Assembly: GCA_015231615.1 (NCBI GenBank)
Contig: JADGBE010000003.1
Span: 62,001 to 126,000, forward strand
From: Desulfamplus sp.
Lineage (GTDB): Bacteria > Desulfobacterota > Desulfobacteria > Desulfobacterales > Desulfobacteraceae
Reading direction: 5' to 3'
Length of the DNA stretch: 64,000 nucleotides
Positions 12,363-62,629 of this stretch are shown one piece after another (the first letter of the stretch is position 1; each line of letters opens with the position of its first letter). A program made the position numbers and the translations under genes. The notes beneath the pieces are model-generated. The model was given only the letters and a program-made list of their open reading frames with translations, did no database searches and was not told where the DNA came from.

Positions 12363-12390
12363 GTAGAGACGCACGGCCGTGCGTCTCTAC
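12363..12390. repeat. 28-bp perfect palindrome (REP-like dispersed repeat)
   Basis: A 14-bp arm (GTAGAGACGCACGG) is immediately followed by its exact complement, with no loop. A degenerate copy (23 of 28 positions) lies at 39284-39311, and a different palindrome of the same style lies at 57069-57102. All are intergenic, as expected for REP-type dispersed repeats. Confidence 0.8.
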
Positions 12391-12454
12391 AGTGTAGACA
12401 AAACTCAATTTATGAGCTTGAACAGTATAATCTCCAAACAGACAATAAAATATA

Positions 12455-44674: not shown

Positions 44675-46309
44675 ATGAAAAACAATATTGAATATGAATT
44701 TTGCATGAGCCAGTTCAAAATGGCAATTGTTGGCATTACAGTTCTTTTAGTGATTGTCCTTGGATGGACAGGATACCACTGCACAAAAAATCCGCACATG
44801 AGAGATTTCAGAATGGCAGCGGCAAATCAACCTATGGGACCACCAATTAATGTGAATGATAAAATGCTTCATCCTTATTGGGGTAACTGCAATAAATGTC
44901 ATATAACTACAGGTGCCGGCAAGCCAGTTTCTCAAGTAATGGCGGGTCCTCCAATATCAATAAATGACAAGATGCTGCATGATTATTGGGGTAACTGTAT
45001 GTTGTGTCATAAAGTTACAGATGGATTTCAGCCCCCTGCAAATGGAGGGGCAAATAATAACGGTGCTAATGCAAACAATGCTGCCCAGCCAGCAGCTTTT
45101 AACCAGTTTTCTCCAAAAAGTCTTGGTTTAACATTGCAGCCAGTAACAGCAGCATTGATGAGAAGCATGGGGCTTGCAAATGAAGATGGGCTTTTAATTA
45201 CAGCAGTTGACCCAAATTCTCCTGCAAGTGCGGCAGGTCTTAAAAAAGGTGATGAGATTATAAGAATTGATAAAGTCCGTCAGGAGACCCTAAACGATTT
45301 TGACAGGGCTTTAAGTGCTGCAAAAGCTGGCAGTGAAATTAAGATGACAATTTACACAGGTAAAAAACAGAGAAGTGTTTTTCTTAAACTTCCGTCTCTT
45401 AATTCAAATGGAGCAATGGCAGCAGCAGCTACAGCCCCAATGACCCAGAATCAAATTGAGACATTAGCCGAACAGTTAGGAGTCCCAAAGACAGAGCAGG
45501 CTGTTACACAGGCTCTTCAAGCACAAAAACAGGCTCAAGGTCAAAATACTCAAATTGTGGCAGCAGTTGCCCCAATGACCCAGAATCAGATAGAGACTTT
45601 AGCTGAACAGCTTGGAGTTCCAAAGACAGAGCAGGCGGTTACACAGGCTCTTCAAGCTCAAAAACAGGCTCAAGGTCAAAATACTCAAGTTGTGGCAGCA
45701 GTTGCCCCGATGACCCAGAATCAGATAGAGACTTTAGCCGAACAGCTTGGAGTTCCAAAGACAGAGCAGGCGGTTACACAAGCTCTTCAGGCACAGCAGC
45801 AGGGACAGACTCAACAGGGGCAGGGGCAACAAACTCGGGTTGTGGCAAACCTGAATTTTGGCAAAGTTGCTGTAGCCTCAACAGGACCGGGTATTGTTTA
45901 CCAGATTTCAGGACAATTTGAAAACAGCCCATATTTTGTGGTCTTTGATCCAACACAAAACAGCTATGGTGTGGTAACAAACCCAAATGTAAACGATCTT
46001 TTTGCTCAAGGGGTTCAAACCGCACAATATATGGTTGATCTGCGTGTAAGCAATGTGATTGCAGGAAGTTTTACCCAAGATGCTCTTAACGCGTTTCATG
46101 TTTTAATGGTGAATGTATATCCGGGTCTTACAGGTTCTGTAAAAGATGTCCTAAACTCTTATACGGCTGGATACTTAATACCTTTAAACGTTGCACCATA
46201 TTCAACTATGCAGCCAGCAACAATGCCATCAACACAGATTGTAAACCCCTCCCCATATCCATATTCAGGGGGAGTTAACGGAAGTGTTCAACCTCAAGTA
46301 TTATACTGA
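44675..46309 (+). CDS. mamP: MamP-like protein: membrane anchor, two magnetochromes, PDZ, triple repeat, NifX-like C-terminal domain
   Basis: Residues 15-34 form a membrane helix. Two magnetochrome motifs follow (CNKCH at 72-76, CMLCH at 108-112), each preceded by GPPI-x-x-NDKMLH-x-YWGN. A PDZ domain spans about 148-240 (LLITAVDPNSPASAAGLKKG). A 45-residue unit starting APMTQNQIETLAEQLGVPKT is repeated three times (45434-45838). Residues 389-505 resemble the NifX/NifB-type FeMo-cofactor-binding fold: GQFENSPYFVVFDP, GVQTAQYMVDLRVSNVIAG and a terminal L-x-x-Y-x-A-G-Y-L. MamP oxidises ferrous iron; here domain order is heme first, PDZ second, unlike Magnetospirillum MamP, and the last domain is additional. 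Confidence 0.78.
   Translation: MKNNIEYEFCMSQFKMAIVGITVLLVIVLGWTGYHCTKNPHMRDFRMAAANQPMGPPINVNDKMLHPYWGNCNKCHITTGAGKPVSQVMAGPPISINDKMLHDYWGNCMLCHKVTDGFQPPANGGANNNGANANNAAQPAAFNQFSPKSLGLTLQPVTAALMRSMGLANEDGLLITAVDPNSPASAAGLKKGDEIIRIDKVRQETLNDFDRALSAAKAGSEIKMTIYTGKKQRSVFLKLPSLNSNGAMAAAATAPMTQNQIETLAEQLGVPKTEQAVTQALQAQKQAQGQNTQIVAAVAPMTQNQIETLAEQLGVPKTEQAVTQALQAQKQAQGQNTQVVAAVAPMTQNQIETLAEQLGVPKTEQAVTQALQAQQQGQTQQGQGQQTRVVANLNFGKVAVASTGPGIVYQISGQFENSPYFVVFDPTQNSYGVVTNPNVNDLFAQGVQTAQYMVDLRVSNVIAGSFTQDALNAFHVLMVNVYPGLTGSVKDVLNSYTAGYLIPLNVAPYSTMQPATMPSTQIVNPSPYPYSGGVNGSVQPQVLY
45434..45838 (+). repeat. Three tandem 135-bp coding repeats
   Basis: Units begin at 45434, 45569 and 45704 and encode APMTQNQIETLAEQLGVPKT plus a Gln/Ala-rich stretch. 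They are nearly identical at DNA level, implying recent expansion or gene conversion, and form a linker between the PDZ and the NifX-like domain. Confidence 0.9.
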
Positions 46310-46339: not shown

Positions 46340-48307
46340 ATGAATAAGACATTAACTATTCTTGCTCCAATATCAGTGCTTGTATTTATAGTGATACTTG
46401 CAGTCATGTATGGGTGGGTTGGCACTATGGATACAACTATGGGAGGAGAGACACCTGAAAGACCAGAGTTAAACACTGCTGCCAACCAGACACAACTTAT
46501 CAATAATCCAACCTTTCCAGCAGGAGTTGGCAATGGTCAGATTCAGCTTATAAACAAACCAACTTTTCCAGCAGGAGTTGGCAATGGTCAGATTCAGCTT
46601 ATAAACAAGCCAACCTTTCCAGCAGGAGTTGGGAACGGTCAGATTCAACTTATAAACAAGCCAACATTTCCAGCAGGAGTTGGCAACGGTCAGATTCAGC
46701 TCATTAACCAGATAGTTCAGGGTTCGCCATATCTTGGAATGGGATTGGCTGACGTTCCAGCAGCTTTATCACAGGAGTTGAATCTAAAGGCTGGGGTTGG
46801 CGTTTATGTGAAAAGCGTTACAGTCGCTTCACCTGCAGAAAAGGCAGGAGTAAAGAGTGGTGATGTAATATTAAAATTTGATGGTAAAAATGCCGCAACC
46901 CACCAACAGATTGGTGAAATCTTAAAAACAAAAAAAGCAGGGAGTGTTATTAAGATCGTTATAAACAGGAATGGAAAGAAAAAATCATTTCATATAAAAC
47001 TTGAAAATGCCCCAAATCTTCCAAATACAGCATTTTCATCTCCAAATAATAGTCAAGCCCAACAGAGCGGTAGGCAACAAAATAATGTTCAAGCTCAACA
47101 AAATGGTTCAACACAACAAAACAGCCCTAAAAATCCTTTTGAACCACCACCTGCAACTTCTAAAATATGGATGGGGGCTGATATTCAAGATATTGATGCG
47201 GTTATGCAGCTTCAATTTTCCCTTCCTGACACAAGAGGCGTTATTGTAAGCCATGTGAGTGCAAACTCTCCAGCCATGACATCAGGTCTTGAAACTGGTG
47301 ATGTTATAAGAAGATTTAATGACACCAGAATCAGAGACGTTAATCAATTTCAATCTCTGATTTTAAAAAGCCAGCCCGGCAATCAGATACAGCTTACGGT
47401 TTTGAGAAAAGGCTCACAAATAACACTTCCTCTTCTGCTTGGAGAACAGACTCCAACACCTGAAAAGCCCCCTTTTCTTGGTCCGGCTGATATTGCAATT
47501 GAAGGAACATGGATTGGCATGGATGTTGGTGAGTTGACAGGCAATGGGGCAGCAGACCTTGGACTGCCTGCTGGAACAAAAGGAATATTGGTTAATGATG
47601 TTGAAAGCCCGCCTGCAACTATGCTTGGATTTACAACAGGCGATGTTATTGTTGCTGTGAACGGTCAGCCAACTCCTGATATGAAAAATTTTGAGACAGC
47701 TACCCAAAAACAGACCAGTGCGGTTGTTGATGTTATCAGAGGGAACAAGCATCTTTTTATAAGTGTTCCACCTCCGGGTTTTACACAGCAAGGAACAAAA
47801 ATAAATCAAGCTATTGATAATAAGATAAAACAGGTTGCAATGACACAGCAAGTTCCACAGCCTCAGCAGACTATTCAGCCTTGCCCATCTGTGCAGACAC
47901 AAAACCAGCAGACTTTTCAGCCATGTCCGATTCAGCAACCTCAGACACAACAGGGAGTTCAACAACAGCCAAACATAAAGTCAGCGACTCAGCGTTTTGG
48001 AATATTTGCATCAAATCCAGATTTGAACAGCACTGTCTATGGAAACAGATTCCAGACTCCATATTTGATTATGGTGGATTTGAGCAATAATTCTTTTGCA
48101 GTAATTGATCCTTCAAATATTGGGAATATAGCTGATACATTCAGCAGCAACAACCTGTCAGCTCTTGTTTGCAGTGATATTTCCCAGCAGGCAGCGTCAG
48201 ACCTTTCAGCAAAAGGGGTAACCATTTACGCTGGTGTTGTTGGAACTCCAAACAGGGCAATTGACTCATATCAGTCAGGATCGCTAACACCAGTGAAAGG
48301 TTTATAG
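46340..48307 (+). CDS. Triple-PDZ magnetosome protein (MamE C-terminal-like) with NifX-like end domain
   Basis: A membrane helix (9-29) is followed by a 17-residue unit (QLINKPTFPAGVGNGQI) repeated four times (46493-46696). Three PDZ domains come next, at about 130-222, 270-370 and 385-480 (VASPAEKAGVKSGDVI; NSPAMTSGLETGDVI; a diverged third with LGFTTGDVIVAVNG). A Gln/Pro linker leads to a C-terminal domain (about 551-655: FGIFASNPDLNSTVYG, YLIMVDLSNNSFAVID, LVCSDISQQAASDL, GVTIYAGV) with the same NifX-like pattern as its upstream neighbour. There is no protease domain and no CxxCH. The layout matches a MamE split into protease and PDZ genes; PDZ arrays there recruit partners. Confidence 0.72.
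   Translation: MNKTLTILAPISVLVFIVILAVMYGWVGTMDTTMGGETPERPELNTAANQTQLINNPTFPAGVGNGQIQLINKPTFPAGVGNGQIQLINKPTFPAGVGNGQIQLINKPTFPAGVGNGQIQLINQIVQGSPYLGMGLADVPAALSQELNLKAGVGVYVKSVTVASPAEKAGVKSGDVILKFDGKNAATHQQIGEILKTKKAGSVIKIVINRNGKKKSFHIKLENAPNLPNTAFSSPNNSQAQQSGRQQNNVQAQQNGSTQQNSPKNPFEPPPATSKIWMGADIQDIDAVMQLQFSLPDTRGVIVSHVSANSPAMTSGLETGDVIRRFNDTRIRDVNQFQSLILKSQPGNQIQLTVLRKGSQITLPLLLGEQTPTPEKPPFLGPADIAIEGTWIGMDVGELTGNGAADLGLPAGTKGILVNDVESPPATMLGFTTGDVIVAVNGQPTPDMKNFETATQKQTSAVVDVIRGNKHLFISVPPPGFTQQGTKINQAIDNKIKQVAMTQQVPQPQQTIQPCPSVQTQNQQTFQPCPIQQPQTQQGVQQQPNIKSATQRFGIFASNPDLNSTVYGNRFQTPYLIMVDLSNNSFAVIDPSNIGNIADTFSSNNLSALVCSDISQQAASDLSAKGVTIYAGVVGTPNRAIDSYQSGSLTPVKGL
46493..46696 (+). repeat. Four tandem 51-bp coding repeats
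   Basis: Units start at 46493, 46544, 46595 and 46646, with a partial fifth, each encoding QLIN(N/K)PTFPAGVGNGQI. Sequence identity between copies is very high. They form a spacer between the membrane anchor and the first PDZ domain. Confidence 0.9.
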
Positions 48308-50359: not shown

Positions 50360-51322
50360 ATGAAAAAAAATAGAAATTTTCAGATAAACAACATGATATG
50401 GGTATCGGCTATTATCGCTATCCTTGTTATTGGAGCTGTATGGACAAATGCTGACTTTATGTTGAATCGATCAGTTGGTGGAAATCAAAATCTGAATCCT
50501 GCTTTGCTGAATCAGAATACAGGGGCATCTCCTATGATCAACAATGGTGCTTTAATGAATTCTCCTAATGCTATGAATAGCACAAACAATCAAATGCAAT
50601 CCATGACATCTTTAGGAAACAGTGGTGCTTCGACAACAACGGCACTTATGGTTCAGGAGGGAATCAGCCATGTAGTCTCCATGATTAAACCATCAGTTGT
50701 TGGAGTCTCTCGTCCAAGAGCTTCCCAGCAGAGTAATGCAACCCAAGCACCAGCATATAATGGCGGACTCTCTTATATTCCATCTTTTAAATCTGGTTCA
50801 CGTTCAGAGGGTTCTGGTGTAATTATTGATCCACGAGGATATATTTTGACCACATTTCAGACCGTAGGCACAGATACAGTGGTCAATGTAAAGCTCTTTT
50901 CAGGAAAAGAGCAGAGTTATCAGGCTGATGTTGTTGCTTTGGATAAAGCAACTGATCTTGTGGTTTTAAAATTGAGGGCACAGGGCGTATTTCCTGCGGT
51001 TGTGCTTGGAAACTCAAATCTTGTTGAGGTTGGTGATATTGTTTTTGCAATTGGCAGTCCATTTGGATTCTCTCAAACCGTAACAATGGGGATTGTGAGC
51101 AGCCACAACAGAAATCTAAGTATTAACGGTGTAAGATACCCTGATATGATCCAGACCGATGCCGCCATAAATCAGGGCAATGATGGCGGTCCTCTTGTGA
51201 ATATTAAGGGTGAAGTTATTGGAATAAACATGGCAACTTTTATGCCTGACAATCAGTATGCGGGCATTGGTTTTGCCATTCCGATTAACGATATTGTAAA
51301 TTTTATCAACAGCAATATATAG
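50360..51322 (+). CDS. MamE/MamO-type HtrA pseudoprotease
   Basis: A membrane helix (13-29), an Asn/Met/Ser-rich linker (35-95) and then an HtrA-type domain to the end. It aligns closely with the protease of the preceding gene, for instance IGSPFGFSQTVTMGIVS and DMIQTDAAIN. Two triad residues are lost: the His position is Gln167 (ILTTFQTVG) and the Ser position is Asp275 (GNDGGP); Asp199 (ATDLVVLK) remains. It therefore cannot act as a serine protease. In Magnetospirillum the MamO protease is likewise inactive and works through metal binding and by activating MamE; the pair here repeats that logic with a different set of lost residues. Confidence 0.82.
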   Translation: MKKNRNFQINNMIWVSAIIAILVIGAVWTNADFMLNRSVGGNQNLNPALLNQNTGASPMINNGALMNSPNAMNSTNNQMQSMTSLGNSGASTTTALMVQEGISHVVSMIKPSVVGVSRPRASQQSNATQAPAYNGGLSYIPSFKSGSRSEGSGVIIDPRGYILTTFQTVGTDTVVNVKLFSGKEQSYQADVVALDKATDLVVLKLRAQGVFPAVVLGNSNLVEVGDIVFAIGSPFGFSQTVTMGIVSSHNRNLSINGVRYPDMIQTDAAINQGNDGGPLVNIKGEVIGINMATFMPDNQYAGIGFAIPINDIVNFINSNI

Positions 51323-51344: not shown

Positions 51345-51455
51345 ATGGAGATTTCACTTAAAATGGTTGTTGCAGCCCTGTTTTTGGCAATGCTTGTTTT
51401 TGGAGCAGTTACAGGGGAATTTGTTGAGACATGGCAAAATGGGGCCACCCTTTGA
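51345..51455 (+). CDS. Small single-helix membrane peptide
   Basis: A 36-residue frame starts at ATG 51345, 23 bases after the pseudoprotease stop, with AAAGGGAT ahead. It reads MEISLKMVVAALFLAMLVFG, then a polar end (GEFVETWQNGATL). One membrane helix fills most of it. Small peptides of this type are common in magnetosome operons, but I cannot name it. Confidence 0.5.
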   Translation: MEISLKMVVAALFLAMLVFGAVTGEFVETWQNGATL

Positions 51456-51535
51456 ACGTCATGTATTGGGTTAGGGTAACCCTTAAATTAAAAGAATAAA
51501 ATAAAGTGTATCACTTCAACTTAAAAAATAGCATA

Positions 51536-51590: not shown

Positions 51591-52193
51591 ATGCTTGAAG
51601 ATTATTTGGATATTAATTTTAAGAAATTTGCATGGTTTGCAGGTTTGGTTATGGTGGTTGCGGTTTTGACCACGATGCTCTACTGGCTGATTTTTGGATT
51701 TGACTCATGGAATAAAAATGTTCAGATTGCATCAGATTTGATGCTTGCAGCAGTTGGTTGACCGCCCCCAGCAGGCCAGACCGGAGGTCAGGCAGGAGGA
51801 ACAGGAGTAGTAGATGCAGCAACAGTTATGCCATATCAACAACCAATGCAATTTCAGCAACAAACACAACCGTATCAGCAAATGCAGATGCAGCCCTACC
51901 AGCAGATGCAGACACAACCTTATCAGCAACAGGTTGTTCAGCCTCAACTGTTCTCAAATGGTATATCAGCACAAACTAACGGGACATCAGGGCAGTATGT
52001 ATGCCCTGTTCATGGAGCTGTTGGACTTCCACAGTTTAACGCTGCTGGCTCGCCTGTTTGTCCTTTAGGAGATCAGATTATGCAGTTTCACAGCACAGGG
52101 GCAAATAGTAATTTGGCACTTGCTGCCGGTGGCTGACCGCCTCCTGGAGGCCAAGCTGGAGGCATGGCAGGAAACAATAGAACATTTTTTTAA
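51591..52193 (+). CDS. Candidate selenoprotein with two in-frame UGA codons, magnetosome operon
   Basis: From ATG 51591 (TAAGGAGAG ahead) the frame runs 200 codons to TAA 52191-52193, interrupted only by UGA at codons 57 (51759-51761) and 182 (52134-52136). Residues 1-56 hold one membrane helix (about 15-36). Both UGAs have the same surroundings: LAAVG-UGA-PPPAGQTGG and LAAGG-UGA-PPPGGQAGG. Between them lie a Pro/Tyr/Gln/Met repeat (PYQQMQ) and a CPVHGAVGLPQFN ... PVCPLGD segment that could bind metal. If UGA were stop, the gene would end at residue 56 and the conserved context would be unexplained. Reading UGA as selenocysteine gives one periplasmic or lumenal protein. Sec insertion is inferred, not shown. 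Confidence 0.65.
51759..51790 (+). other. Possible SECIS-like hairpin at the first UGA
   Basis: TGACCGCC (51759-51766, starting with the UGA itself) can pair with GGAGGTCA (51783-51790), with one mismatch and a 16-nt loop. Bacterial SECIS hairpins lie immediately downstream of the Sec codon. The structure is by eye only. Confidence 0.35.
52134..52167 (+). other. Possible SECIS-like hairpin at the second UGA
   Basis: Just after the UGA, GCCTCC (52139-52144) pairs with GGAGGC (52158-52163) around a 13-nt loop, and the flanking CC can pair with GG after a 2-nt bulge. An alternative tighter hairpin uses GGAGGC at 52146. Predicted by eye only. Confidence 0.35.
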
Positions 52194-52284
52194 CCTGATC
52201 TTACTTTATTTTTAAGAACTTATATCAGGGCAACTTAGCATTTTAATTTTTATAAGAGCAATTATTTAAGGAAGAGTGTTTGAT

Positions 52285-53136
52285 ATGATTCTTTCTAAAA
52301 CCAGACAACTGATGCAGCTTGCAAGCACAATACTCTCAAATAGCTATGTGAGTGTATTAGGCACAAAAAACATAGCCACAGGTCCACTTAAAGGTATATG
52401 TGTCCCTTTTCTGAACTGTTACGCATGTCCTTCAGCAATCTTTTCATGCCCTATTGGGACATTGCAGCATTTTATGACCATTCGTGTAATCCCCTATTAC
52501 CTGATTGGATTTATTGCTCTTGTGGGACTTAGCGTAGGCAGAATGGCTTGTGGGTGGCTATGTCCGTTTGGGTTTATTCAGGATATTATCTACAAAATCC
52601 CTTCACCTAAACTTAAAATACCAAGATACTTCAAATATTTTAAATATGTGGTGCTATTGTTGCTGGTTATAATTCTTCCCTACTTAACAGCAGAAACTGT
52701 ATTTTCAAAAGTTTGTCCCGCAGGCACACTTACTGCTGGAATTCCATGGGCATTGTGGAATCCTATAAATCCACAAACTGGACAGCATGTTTTTCCAACT
52801 GGTATAGGGATTATGTTTTTTGTCTCTTTAACGGTTATGATCGTGTTTCTAATATTTTTTGTCTTAACAAAAAGACCTTTTTGCAGAGTTGCCTGTCCAA
52901 TGGGGGCTATTCTTGCCCTTTTTAACAAATACAGTATGGTTCGGCTTGAAGTGAGTAAAGGGTGTGATGGCTGCAATATCTGTCAAGATATTTGTCCTGT
53001 TGATATAAATGTTTCCATAGATGGAAATTCAGGAGAGTGTATCCGCTGCCTTGAATGCACAAGGTGCAATCATGTCAAGGTATCCACACCATTTCCATTG
53101 GATAGAAAATGGAGTTATTATAAAAATGATAGATGA
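52285..53136 (+). CDS. NapH/CcoG-like membrane polyferredoxin of the magnetosome operon
   Basis: Four to five membrane helices carry the NapH-type cysteine motifs CGWLCPFGFIQDI and FCRVACPMGAI. An earlier NCYACPSAIFSCPIG motif and KVCPAGT add further cysteines. The C-terminus holds two [4Fe-4S] motifs, CDGCNICQDICPVD and CIRCLECTRC. I start it at ATG 52285, ten bases after AAGGAAG; a GTG at 52276 is too close to that site. It probably passes electrons across the membrane to the periplasmic or lumenal heme proteins encoded around it. Ferredoxin-type Mad proteins (I recall Mad6) fit, but the orthology is not certain. Confidence 0.78.
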   Translation: MILSKTRQLMQLASTILSNSYVSVLGTKNIATGPLKGICVPFLNCYACPSAIFSCPIGTLQHFMTIRVIPYYLIGFIALVGLSVGRMACGWLCPFGFIQDIIYKIPSPKLKIPRYFKYFKYVVLLLLVIILPYLTAETVFSKVCPAGTLTAGIPWALWNPINPQTGQHVFPTGIGIMFFVSLTVMIVFLIFFVLTKRPFCRVACPMGAILALFNKYSMVRLEVSKGCDGCNICQDICPVDINVSIDGNSGECIRCLECTRCNHVKVSTPFPLDRKWSYYKNDR

Positions 53137-53512
53137 TGAAATATTTGACGAGATAGATGAGATAATTCAGCCAAAATCTAAAAAAAAGAAGTCTGAACAA
53201 GATGAACAAGAGATGATGGGTGAGTCTTCAATGTGGGCTATAATCGGTACAGTGTTTCTTTGCGTAGTTATTATACTTATGATTGTATATAACCGCGAAA
53301 AAGAGAAACCTGACAGCCCGCAGGCATACGTTGCAGCAAAGTTCAGTCAGTTGTTTAATATTCAGGAGTGGAAGCCGGGAATGGGTACTCAACCTCTTCT
53401 TTATCACCCGGCAGCATTTAATGCACCTGTTCAGAATAACTCTACTGTATGGAAACCTCTGCCAAATCGAGGCTCTTATAATACCCTTGCAGCATTTGGT
53501 TGACCGCCATAA
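53126..53512 (+). CDS. Candidate selenoprotein with a penultimate-region UGA, magnetosome operon
   Basis: The start ATG 53126 overlaps the polyferredoxin stop and has GGAG 11 bases ahead. An acidic/lysine-rich N-terminus (1-32) precedes one membrane helix (about 36-53) and a likely lumenal or periplasmic domain (AYVAAKFSQLFNIQEWKPGM ...). Codon 126 is UGA (53501-53503), in the context LAAFG-UGA-P-P, followed by TAA at 53510-53512. The last 13 bases through the UGA element (TTGGTTGACCGCC) are identical to those at the first UGA of the gene at 51591. With UGA as stop the product has 125 residues; with Sec it ends G-U-P-P. No family is recognised. Confidence 0.62.
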
Positions 53513-53531
53513 ATAACTTGACCGTTGGTCA
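53501..53531 (+). other. Possible SECIS-like hairpin at the third UGA
   Basis: The UGA-containing TGACC (53501-53505) can pair with GGTCA (53527-53531), or a compact hairpin TGACC-GTT-GGTCA can form at 53519-53531. The short stem is weak; this might instead be a terminator-like element. Confidence 0.3.
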
Positions 53532-53664
53532 GGTAGTTATAGTAAACAAAATAAAAAATAAAAAAAACATAAGCAGCTTCGCTGCACAATTATTGTTGGA
53601 TTGAAATTCCTGAACAATAAAATAATAAACAGATTAAACAATAATATTCAGGTGGTGGTGAAAA

Positions 53665-53982
53665 ATGTTTAAAACAATTATGACCATAATTGTTACTATA
53701 CTTGTTGTGCTTTTCTCCATAGAGAATTTTGAACATGTGCCTGTATCCTTTATTGCGGGAAAACCTGTAAATATGCGGTTGATATTTGTCATCACCATTT
53801 CAGGAATTATCGGCTATCTTATCCGCCATTTTTCAGCAATAGCAACAGAAGATAGGCTCAAACGCCAGCTTCAACATCTGCTTAAACGCAGAAACAGCGT
53901 AAAAAACGGTGCAAAAAGAGTAGGCAATAACAGAAAAGAGATGTTGGTTGATGACAACTTTGAGCATGATGAAGAGCTTTAG
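53665..53982 (+). CDS. mamL: MamL-like (LapA/DUF1049-type) membrane protein
   Basis: Two hydrophobic helices (MTIIVTILVVLFSIENFEHV; MRLIFVITISGIIGYLI) with the short loop HVPVSFIAGKPVN are followed by a basic, polar tail (KRQLQHLLKRRNSVKN ... RVGNNRK). This is the layout of MamL and of LapA-domain proteins, whose basic tail may bind and bend membranes. MamL is essential for magnetosome membrane formation in Magnetospirillum. The acidic last residues (DDNFEHDEEL) are additional. The gene lies between the candidate selenoprotein and the mamM-like gene. Confidence 0.75.
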   Translation: MFKTIMTIIVTILVVLFSIENFEHVPVSFIAGKPVNMRLIFVITISGIIGYLIRHFSAIATEDRLKRQLQHLLKRRNSVKNGAKRVGNNRKEMLVDDNFEHDEEL

Positions 53983-61120: not shown

Positions 61121-62629
61121 ATGTCCGAAGATAACACAACTATAATGATTTCAGCAGAAAAGATGGTTGCCCAAGAAAAGGCAAACATGGTTGCAAAACT
61201 CCATCAGATGGTCAAATCTCTTAAAATTGACTTAACAGCTAAACTGCCAATAAATGAAAAGCTGATAAAAGAGTCAAAGAGGCAGCATGAGACTATTATA
61301 TCTATTTTAAATGACCAGATGGCAGAGATACAAAATAGAGCTGTTGAGCAGAGTCAAGAGATTGAAAGACTTGGAAAAGAGCTTGAAAAATCTCTTAAAG
61401 ATACAGAGACAGCTTTAAATCACGCTGAAAAAGCAGAGTCAGAAAAAAATAAGGCAATCTCAAGGGCAAAGGAAGCAGAATCAGAAAAAGAAAAAGCTGT
61501 GAAAAATGCCTTGTTAGAAAAGGACGAGGCTGTCAGAACAGCTATGTCTGAGAAGGACGAGGCTATCAGAAAAGCTATGTCAGAAAAAGAAGTGGCTGTC
61601 AGAACAGCTATGACAGAAAAGGAAGATGCTGTCAAAATTGCAAAATCACAAAAAGATGAGGCTCTAAACAAAGCTCAAAAAGCTGACGAAGAAAAAGAGA
61701 AGGCTCTGGAAGCTGCTCGCAAATCTCTTGCTGAAAAAGAGGAGGCTCTCAGAAGTGCAGAAAAAGCTCAATCTGAAAAAGAAGATGCTCTGAAAAAAGC
61801 TGCAAAGGCAGAAGAAGAAAAGGAAAAAGCTATTGAATCTGCAATAAAGGCTCTTGCTGAAAAAGAGGAGGCTCTCAGAAGTGCAGAAAAAGCTCAATCT
61901 GAAAAAGAAGATGCATTGAAAAAAGCTGACAAAGCAAAAGATGAGAAAGAGACTGCCATCGAATCTTCAAGAAAGGCTCTTGCTGAAAAAGAGGAGGCTT
62001 TAAGAAGTGCAGAAAAAGCTCAATCTGAAAAGGAAGAGGCTCTAAGAAAAGCTGACAAAGCTGAAGAGGAAAAAGAAAAAGCCTTTAAAGCAGCTAAAAA
62101 CGCTGAATCAGACAGGGACGAGGCTGTCAGAAAAGCTATGTCAGAAAAGGAAGAGGCTGTCAAAAAAGCTATGTCAGACAAGGAAGAGGCTCTTAAAAAA
62201 GCCGAAAAAGCAGAAGAAGATAAGGAAAAGGCGTTAAAAACAGCCAAAAAAATAGAATCTGAAAAAGATGATGCTCTCACCTTGAACGAACAGATTAAAA
62301 TGGAGAGAGACAAGGCATTAAGTGCTTTGAAAAAAGCTGAATCACAAAAAGAAGAGGTTCTTTCTTCATTAGCACAGGCAGAAAAAGAGCGGGATCAAGC
62401 TCTATCTGTAGCTGAAAAAGAGGGGGCAGAGAAGAAAAAAGCTCTTGCCAAAGTTCAAGAGAGTGAAAACAACGCAAAAGAGCAGCTTGAAAGTCTTAAA
62501 AAACAGATAAAATCTTTAGAGAACCAGTTGAATGAGTCATTGGAAGTTGGGGAAAAAGTTGCCAAAGAAAAAGCAAAAGTTGACCAGAAATACGAAAAAC
62601 TTTTGGAACAGTGGCAGAATACGCTTTAA
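61121..62629 (+). CDS. Long coiled-coil protein with 42-residue repeats, magnetosome chain region
   Basis: Residues 1-100 form a helical head; from about 95 to the end the protein is a continuous coiled coil of Ala, Glu and Lys (AEKAESEK, AMSEKDEA). A 126-bp unit encoding LAEKEEALRSAEKAQSEKED and its flank occurs three times, from about 61730, 61856 and 61982. Eleven- and fourteen-residue subperiods are visible. The start has AAAGGAGTGAT ahead. Coiled-coil Mad proteins help position magnetosomes in other bacteria, and this one, next to mamK and resembling the C-terminus of the protein at 32682-34325, is a good candidate. The exact Mad number cannot be assigned. Confidence 0.68.
   Translation: MSEDNTTIMISAEKMVAQEKANMVAKLHQMVKSLKIDLTAKLPINEKLIKESKRQHETIISILNDQMAEIQNRAVEQSQEIERLGKELEKSLKDTETALNHAEKAESEKNKAISRAKEAESEKEKAVKNALLEKDEAVRTAMSEKDEAIRKAMSEKEVAVRTAMTEKEDAVKIAKSQKDEALNKAQKADEEKEKALEAARKSLAEKEEALRSAEKAQSEKEDALKKAAKAEEEKEKAIESAIKALAEKEEALRSAEKAQSEKEDALKKADKAKDEKETAIESSRKALAEKEEALRSAEKAQSEKEEALRKADKAEEEKEKAFKAAKNAESDRDEAVRKAMSEKEEAVKKAMSDKEEALKKAEKAEEDKEKALKTAKKIESEKDDALTLNEQIKMERDKALSALKKAESQKEEVLSSLAQAEKERDQALSVAEKEGAEKKKALAKVQESENNAKEQLESLKKQIKSLENQLNESLEVGEKVAKEKAKVDQKYEKLLEQWQNTL
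61730..62107 (+). repeat. Three tandem 126-bp coding repeats
   Basis: The block beginning GCTGAAAAAGAGGAGGC recurs exactly 126 bp apart at 61730, 61856 and 61982 with high identity, inside the coiled-coil gene. The period is 42 residues, six heptads. Confidence 0.85.

Follow-up and report, generated by a model that had tools for sequence, protein, structure and literature searches.

A small subset of prokaryotic selenoproteins contains two or three selenocysteine (Sec, U) residues, according to the accessible part of a 2026 review (PMC13188914). MbdU, the arsenite methyltransferase/AhpD fusion, and VhuD resemble the predicted product of gene B, a magnetosome-operon gene described here, in having more than one Sec per protein. 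In contrast to these known multi-Sec prokaryotic selenoproteins, gene B has tandem Sec modules that can be duplicated, with up to four putative Sec. Multiple Sec residues are also present in selenoprotein P of animals (7–15 by species, as far as the accessible part of the source goes). However, gene B has bacterial-type hairpins after its UGAs instead of 3′UTR elements, and its product is predicted to be membrane-anchored and is encoded in a magnetosome cluster.

Two further described systems are relevant to the genes around gene B. Mad6 of Desulfovibrio magneticus RS-1 (DMR_41050) is mostly a NapH domain, and its loss by mutation leaves cells with few particles; the accessible portion of that report contains no mention of selenoproteins (Rahn-Lee et al. 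2015, PMC4287615). The likeness to gene D of our locus lies in the NapH-like domain and the position close to mamL (DMR_41030 in RS-1; same portion of PMC4287615). The other system is CD1871A (NCBIfam NF040920). Residues 8–44 of gene A align to positions 2–38 of this 38-position model, with U at the first Cys of CxxC, and relatives stand beside NapH-like genes. Nevertheless, gene A of the window scored only 18.8 bits (E 0.0011), below the curated cutoff of 32, and is located in a magnetosome gene cluster. A Cys-form relative (L098) exceeded this cutoff with 40.7 bits and a U-form relative (L093) reached 26.8 bits, whereas no match was obtained for gene A of L046.

No report of magnetosome selenoproteins of this kind was found among the titles and abstracts searched; subscription literature was not covered, and a report there is not excluded. 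The accessible passage of PMC12805115 concerned tRNA-SeC counts only, that of PMC8318568 was confined to the reference list, and the word stem "selen" is absent from an RS-1 paper (PMC12748827). Neither gene A nor gene B appears under a recognisable name in the table of 119 prokaryotic selenoprotein families, as far as the review was accessible (PMC13188914), and neither the name CD1871A nor the accession NF040920 occurs in its main text.

The window, i.e., the whole 64,000-nt stretch analysed, spans positions 62001–126000 of contig C134 of the MAG G000 (3.86 Mb, 200 contigs, 89.8% complete). The features of its magnetosome operon are listed in Table 1.

Table 1. Positions of the operon features within the window.
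Feature	Position	Strand	Description
MamE-like serine protease gene	50360..51322	+	Directly upstream of gene A; MamE model 188 bits, below cutoff 800
Gene A	51345..51479	+	44-aa single-TM protein; UGA 51453-51455; TAA at 51477
Gene A SECIS-like hairpin	51468..51482	+	GGGUUA-GGG-UAACCC; loop 19 nt after UGA; 3′ arm over stop codon
Gene B	51591..52193	+	200-aa, two in-frame UGAs, TAA end
Gene B first in-frame UGA	51759..51761	+	Codon 57; LAAVG-U-PPPAGQ
Gene B first-UGA SECIS-like hairpin	51775..51793	+	GCCAGACC-GGA-GGUCAGGC, one A.A mismatch; loop 22 nt after UGA
Gene B ribbon-like motif CPVHG...CPLGD	52002..52073	+	CPxxG...CPxCG in relatives outside the genus
Gene B second in-frame UGA	52134..52136	+	Codon 182; LAAGG-U-PPPGGQAGG
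Gene B second-UGA weaker SECIS-like hairpin	52150..52168	+	GCCAAGCU-GGA-GGCAUGGC, 7 pairs, one mismatch
Gene D	52276..53136	+	NapH-like polyferredoxin membrane protein; Fer4_5
Gene C	about 53126..53512 (frame open from 53021)	+	Single-TM; ends LAAFG-U-PP*, UGA 53501-53503
Gene C SECIS-like hairpin	53512..53538	+	Loop GUU 21 nt after UGA, beyond TAA stop
MamL-like gene	53665..53982	+	Directly downstream of gene C; by size and position

The first-pass annotation had described gene B as a single 200-codon frame interrupted only by two UGA codons in matching contexts, with an ordered Cys motif between them, and translation with UGA as a residue agrees with this. The two contexts read LAAVG-U-PPPAGQTGGQAGG and LAAGG-U-PPPGGQAGGMAG. 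The window contains two occurrences of the pattern GGNTGANCNCCNCC vs 0.04 expected from shuffling. The ATG of gene B is preceded by a AAGGAGAG sequence. The encoded protein consists of an N-terminal TM helix, a Q/P linker, the ribbon-like CPxHG...CP motif, and a Gly/Pro tail. The same annotation had held that the peptide is conserved past the UGAs and that UGA is an ordinary stop elsewhere in the window; both statements were borne out. Downstream of the second UGA, pN was 0.128 vs pS 0.398 (sum of five pairs), with a weaker difference for the most diverged pair, L033 (pN 0.399 vs pS 0.603 only). TGA terminates 6 of the 25 reading frames listed for the window, in agreement with a standard code.

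AlphaFold2 modelled gene B as a helix (residues 2–54) followed by a remainder of mostly low confidence (mean pLDDT 42), and the tail is predicted to be disordered. Comparison of gene B with Pfam, NCBIfam, and PDB sequences gave nothing convincing, only weak zinc-ribbon matches; no NCBIfam model scored above cutoff for the window protein and four other members scanned. No match was found in the plasmid and phage collections searched. The CPxHG...CPxCG motif presumably resembles a heavy-metal-binding domain; the family of that name was absent from a Pfam scan of 11 gene-B members.

Gene B was found at 17 loci in 16 genomes, and every one of the 17 has at least one in-frame UGA. All of them adjoin magnetosome genes, as judged by tblastn of the window's genes. 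With the own genome counted where included, matches were obtained in 7/58 genomes of relatives, 6/395 of the phylum, 15/389 of the order, and 2/3 of the class of G062. No gene-B match was detected in the close relatives G099, G002, G005, and G008, whose genomes are incomplete (67–74%). Weak matches in G074, G675, G491, and G494 were left out of the 17 loci; they were regarded as unrelated on E-value and frame length alone (the G074 match has TAA). In-frame stops within gene B were reported by the profile and protein searches as TGA only. The site patterns sought UGA only, or UGA/Cys, and could not by themselves have revealed TAA or TAG; the profile searches and tblastn are free of this limit.

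The number of UGAs in gene B varies from one to four by lineage, often in tandem GGU-xPP modules. Both UGAs of the window protein are kept in its close relatives (L018–L021) and also in the diverged gene B of G001, at 53% identity; in L022 the first module is lost and the second UGA is kept. Outside Desulfamplus, the UGAs are located after the ribbon-like motif, in the tails. The tail of L046 reads AAGGGULPQAGQGG..AGVGUPPQQ, and in L047 the unit FGGGUATANPAAVAAWN is repeated, with three UGAs. Three GGGU[VL]PPTxGPGGxQG repeats occur in L087 (genome G485), where the UGAs (5043, 5106, and 5169) are exactly 63 nt apart, and L086 has four UGAs. As to the suggestion that homologues would carry Cys or UGA at these positions, UGA was present at all 17 gene-B loci and Cys/UGA pairing was seen in gene A (below), but none of the 17 loci has a Cys form of gene B.

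Two observations were made in G134. This genome has two gene-B loci on different contigs (L049 and L048), one by NapH and the other by MamA/MamP-like genes. In L048 (8202–8255, contig C28), a duplicated gene-B module reads CGA (Arg) at the codon that is UGA in its sister copy, so that this repeat appears to have lost its Sec by a change of one base.

Gene A, absent from the first-pass annotation, has an in-frame UGA in the same operon. It reads MEISLK...ETWQNGATL-U-TSCIGLG-TAA and lies 111 nt upstream of gene B. A tblastn match to gene A was obtained at 15 of the 17 gene-B loci (none for L048 and L086), and all 15 read UxxCIGLG (UTSC, UTAC, UPSC, UTYC, or UMSC). After the UGA, pN was 0.013 and pS 0.494. 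A profile built from ten magnetosome-cluster members matched in 68/395 phylum genomes. In the best 30 phylum loci, the Sec column contained UGA in 10 cases and Cys in 20; the column was read for these 30 of the 68 genomes with a match, the rest being known by stop count only. Exchange of Sec and Cys at one column is a standard computational criterion for selenoproteins, as given in the accessible part of the review (PMC13188914). The UGA/Cys exchange in gene A is therefore a sign of a selenoprotein. Many of the Cys-form relatives end in UGA. A NapH-like gene (GRxxCGxxCPFG) follows gene A downstream on the same strand in 27 of the best 30 loci. The 10 UGA loci comprise five in magnetosome clusters (the window's included) and five others. 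These five (L093, L097, L101, L113, and L115) scored far lower than the magnetosome copies and have UGA (ULSCIGVG, ULHCIGVG) and hairpins. They are probable CD1871A/NapH-type selenoproteins outside magnetosome clusters, although their wider surroundings were not read.

Gene C, also missing from the first-pass annotation, adds a further in-frame UGA to the operon. The double-Sec protein that had been proposed is matched by the two UGAs of gene B and is extended to three UGA-containing genes with four UGAs in this operon, and to one to four Sec modules elsewhere. The ending LAAFG-UGA-PP-TAA of gene C is shared by the window, L018, L019, and L021. Of the four window sites, the one in this short gene C is the least secure, as its UGA is followed by two residues only. 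A full tail is present in L020 (LAAGG-U-PPPVGQAGGMAGQRNLFF) and in G001 (TAAGG-U-VPPTGSAGGRTGNSGIFF), whereas gene C of L046, L083, and L050 has no such Sec tail; Sec in gene C was seen in the genus Desulfamplus only.

Gene D matched PF12801 (Fer4_5) with 62.7 bits (cutoff 22), and its score against the NapH subfamily model TIGR02163 (65.9 bits) was below the cutoff of 213. It is probably Mad6, by domain and place near mamL only. Loci that span the region share the order MamE, A, B, NapH-like D, C, MamL, CDF; gene B of L048 and L086 is located elsewhere, next to MamA/MamP-like genes. MamL and the other Mam names apart from MamE are tentative labels.

Several further features of the cluster and its genomes were recorded. 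Internal tandem repeats (APMTQNQIETLAEQLGVPKTEQ..., QLINKPTFPAGVGNGQI) occur in two PDZ proteins of the window's cluster (44675–46309 and 46340–48307), and both proteins match the dinitrogenase cofactor (Nitro_FeMo-Co) family at the C-terminus. G001 contains another magnetosome-like gene set downstream (L034, 9497–16000), which has a weak NapH-like match of its own (26%); gene B was found in the first set only. A short palindrome (about 27–34 nt), mostly matching both strands, is listed at some 36 places, including window positions 12364–12396 and other G000 contigs.

SECIS-like hairpins follow the UGAs. In gene A, the hairpin GGGUUA-GGN-UAACCC (with small variations) was located 19 nt after the UGA in all copies counted, and its 3′ arm extends across the stop codon into the non-coding region. 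Other sites have the hairpin wholly or partly past the stop codon, namely UGA 3 of L047, UGA 4 of L086, and the gene-C UGAs of L021 and the window. Codon conservation is thus no explanation for the hairpins at these places. Among gene-A loci, a hairpin score of 11 or more was reached by 10/10 U forms and 1/20 Cys forms (L095, missed by the regex of the first rule described below, was scored separately for this comparison). SelD is an established selenoprotein, and the selD genes of G001, G002, G004, and G005 have the same GGN loop at +21. No such hairpin follows three TGA codons of genes B and C that are probably true stops.

Three rules were used to count hairpins. The published bSECIS model demands a 3–9 nt loop with G[G/U] and at least 4 bp, 16–37 nt after the UGA (accessible part of PMC13188914). 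It was passed by 41 of the 48 sites, compared to a mean of 18.0 in codon shuffles (maximum 26 in 300), but this model is loose because 29% of 2735 other TGA triplets of the window also pass. The first rule of our own (GG loop at +17 to +24, score 11 or more), framed after the gene-A hairpins had been viewed, was met by 38/48 sites (codon-shuffle mean 1.6, maximum 7 in 500) and by 19/2736 other window TGA. When one mismatch was allowed, 48 of 49 sites scored 12 or more vs 2.9 in shuffles (maximum 8), with 105/2736 other window TGA. The one-mismatch rule was set after all sites had been seen, and only the published model came from print. L018 (97% identical to the window protein) and the second gene-A copy (L020 4911, next to N) were excluded from the counts. 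The gene-B site L084 7993 was lost to a filter and is outside both the 48 and the 49, though its stem ggccaGGGtggcc is present; the fourth UGA of L086, first labelled as a possible stop, is in the 49 and not in the 48.

The SECIS elements expected at the window's UGAs were recovered in part. Sites A, B1, and C pass the published model, whereas the second gene-B UGA has only an interrupted stem. Its hairpin does not satisfy the strict published model and is missing from the minimum-energy fold (z +0.08), and the seven failing sites include, besides this one, those of L019, L020, L021, and L022. RNAfold z-scores of the four window sites were weak (−0.11, −0.45, +0.08, and −1.96) and, taken alone, did not separate the window hairpins from shuffles.

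The machinery searches covered SelB, tRNA-Sec, and SelD in genomes of the genus, but neither selA nor any of the nine other genomes with gene B. Of the Sec machinery that the first-pass annotation had expected in the genome, selB was recovered and selC and selD were not. SelB was found in G000 (C119:5795–7693) with 367 bits (cutoff 242). A tRNA-Sec (selC) over cutoff was not found in this incomplete MAG, and neither was SelD. In G000, the contig that corresponds by synteny to the selD region of G004 stops 132 nt past the last match, before the expected place of selD. Unlike the selD place, the place of tRNA-Sec does not coincide with a contig end in G000 and remains unresolved by synteny. The nearest relative, G004, has both selD and tRNA-Sec. 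A tRNA-Sec over cutoff was present in 7/9 other genomes of the genus, G004 among them, and absent in G005 and G009; gene B of G009 has two UGAs. In the six other same-genus genomes searched for SelD, it was over cutoff and contained UGA in G001, G002, G004, and G005, and no hit over cutoff was obtained in G003 and G006.

Could UGA simply be a stop in these genes? Gene B would then be a 56-aa peptide and an internal 102-aa frame, gene A would be 36 aa long, and the similarity downstream would be a leftover or an independent ORF. Such fragments are indeed what standard ORF calling yields (e.g., 51828–52136), and UGA does terminate other listed frames. However, purifying selection persists after the UGAs, the stops inside gene-B matches are reported as TGA only, and Cys occupies the same column in gene-A relatives. 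Moreover, the UGA-bearing repeats stay in frame, and a UGA-bearing coding unit that grows in tandem is hard to explain if UGA is a stop. We consider this explanation very improbable. Still less credit is given to a general reassignment of UGA (to Trp, Gly, or Cys) or to a nonspecific suppressor. The frames do open when UGA is read as sense, but UGA ends other window genes and many of the Cys-form gene-A relatives, the hairpin accompanies U but hardly ever C, and SelB is present. Decay of a pseudogene or assembly error, to which the fragmented assemblies of several genomes would lend some support, is negligible to a similar degree, since the same UGA positions, with hairpins, recur in independent assemblies of several families. 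All three explanations were rejected on this evidence. Sec insertion at the gene-B UGAs, proposed in the earlier annotation, is instead supported by the UGAs at all 17 loci, the Sec/Cys pairing of gene A, the hairpins, SelB, and the use of UGA as a stop elsewhere. From the sequence evidence, and without expression or selenium data, we infer with high confidence that UGA is decoded as Sec in genes A, B, and C.

The alternative that concerns function is less easily dismissed. The Sec tails of B and C might serve metal or mineral binding, or selenium/metal storage in the manner of selenoprotein P, and not electron transfer. The tails are Gly/Pro-rich and expandable, their U is isolated with no UxxC, and the tail of the window protein is predicted to be disordered. 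On the other hand, the nearby NapH-like redox gene and UxxC partner fit a redox role, and the two roles are not mutually exclusive. We regard binding or storage alone as possible but the less favoured reading. The best overall reading, in our judgement a quite probable one with the biochemical role inferred, is a redox module of magnetosome selenoproteins. The occurrence of a UxxC partner beside a NapH-type electron donor suggests thiol/selenol electron transfer, and on balance we lean towards a redox partnership of A, B, and C with the NapH-like protein, which is likewise inferred.

In the redox module as proposed, SelB and tRNA-Sec would read UGA as Sec via a short bacterial SECIS hairpin about 17–25 nt after each UGA. 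Gene A would be the Sec form of a widespread membrane peptide of 40–45 residues with a C-terminal CxxC, encoded beside NapH-type 4Fe-4S proteins. Gene B would encode a protein of the magnetosome cluster in which a single membrane helix and the ribbon-like CPxxG...CP are combined with a flexible Gly/Pro tail bearing one to four Sec in duplicable modules; gene C appears to have gained a gene-B-type tail in the window's genus. Because positive residues precede the single membrane helix, the U-bearing ends of A and B are inferred to face the lumen, and by this positive-inside reasoning the selenols of A, B, and C would most likely be located on the lumenal side of the magnetosome membrane. The NapH-like protein (probable Mad6) may donate electrons to the UxxC of A, from where they would reach B and C, and these two would determine the redox or ligand state of iron as the crystal grows. 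Instead or in addition, the flexible, duplicable tails of B may bind iron. UGA conservation, the Sec/Cys pairing of A, hairpins, synteny, and SelB are read directly from the genomes, whereas topology, electron flow, and iron as the substrate are inferred.

A more far-reaching proposal, which we put forward only tentatively, is that many magnetotactic relatives of Desulfamplus require a dedicated selenoprotein module (A, B, NapH/Mad6, and sometimes C) to form magnetosomes, and that the flexible lumenal tail of this module, with one to four Sec in tandem UGA-SECIS cassettes, acts directly on iron at the mineral surface by redox setting, as a ligand, or in nucleation. Magnetosome selenoprotein genes are easily missed because standard ORF calling cuts them at UGA. 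The UGA modules of gene B form a natural series (one to four) for the study of successive UGA decoding in bacteria, and they also inform how Sec cassettes are duplicated, kept, and lost. Redox control of magnetite and greigite formation would become testable. If true, the reading would mean that biomineralization in an organelle can depend on selenium and that a bacterial protein can evolve by gain and loss of Sec cassettes, and selenium would be linked, through genetically encoded Sec, to how bacteria build an organelle and its magnetic crystal.
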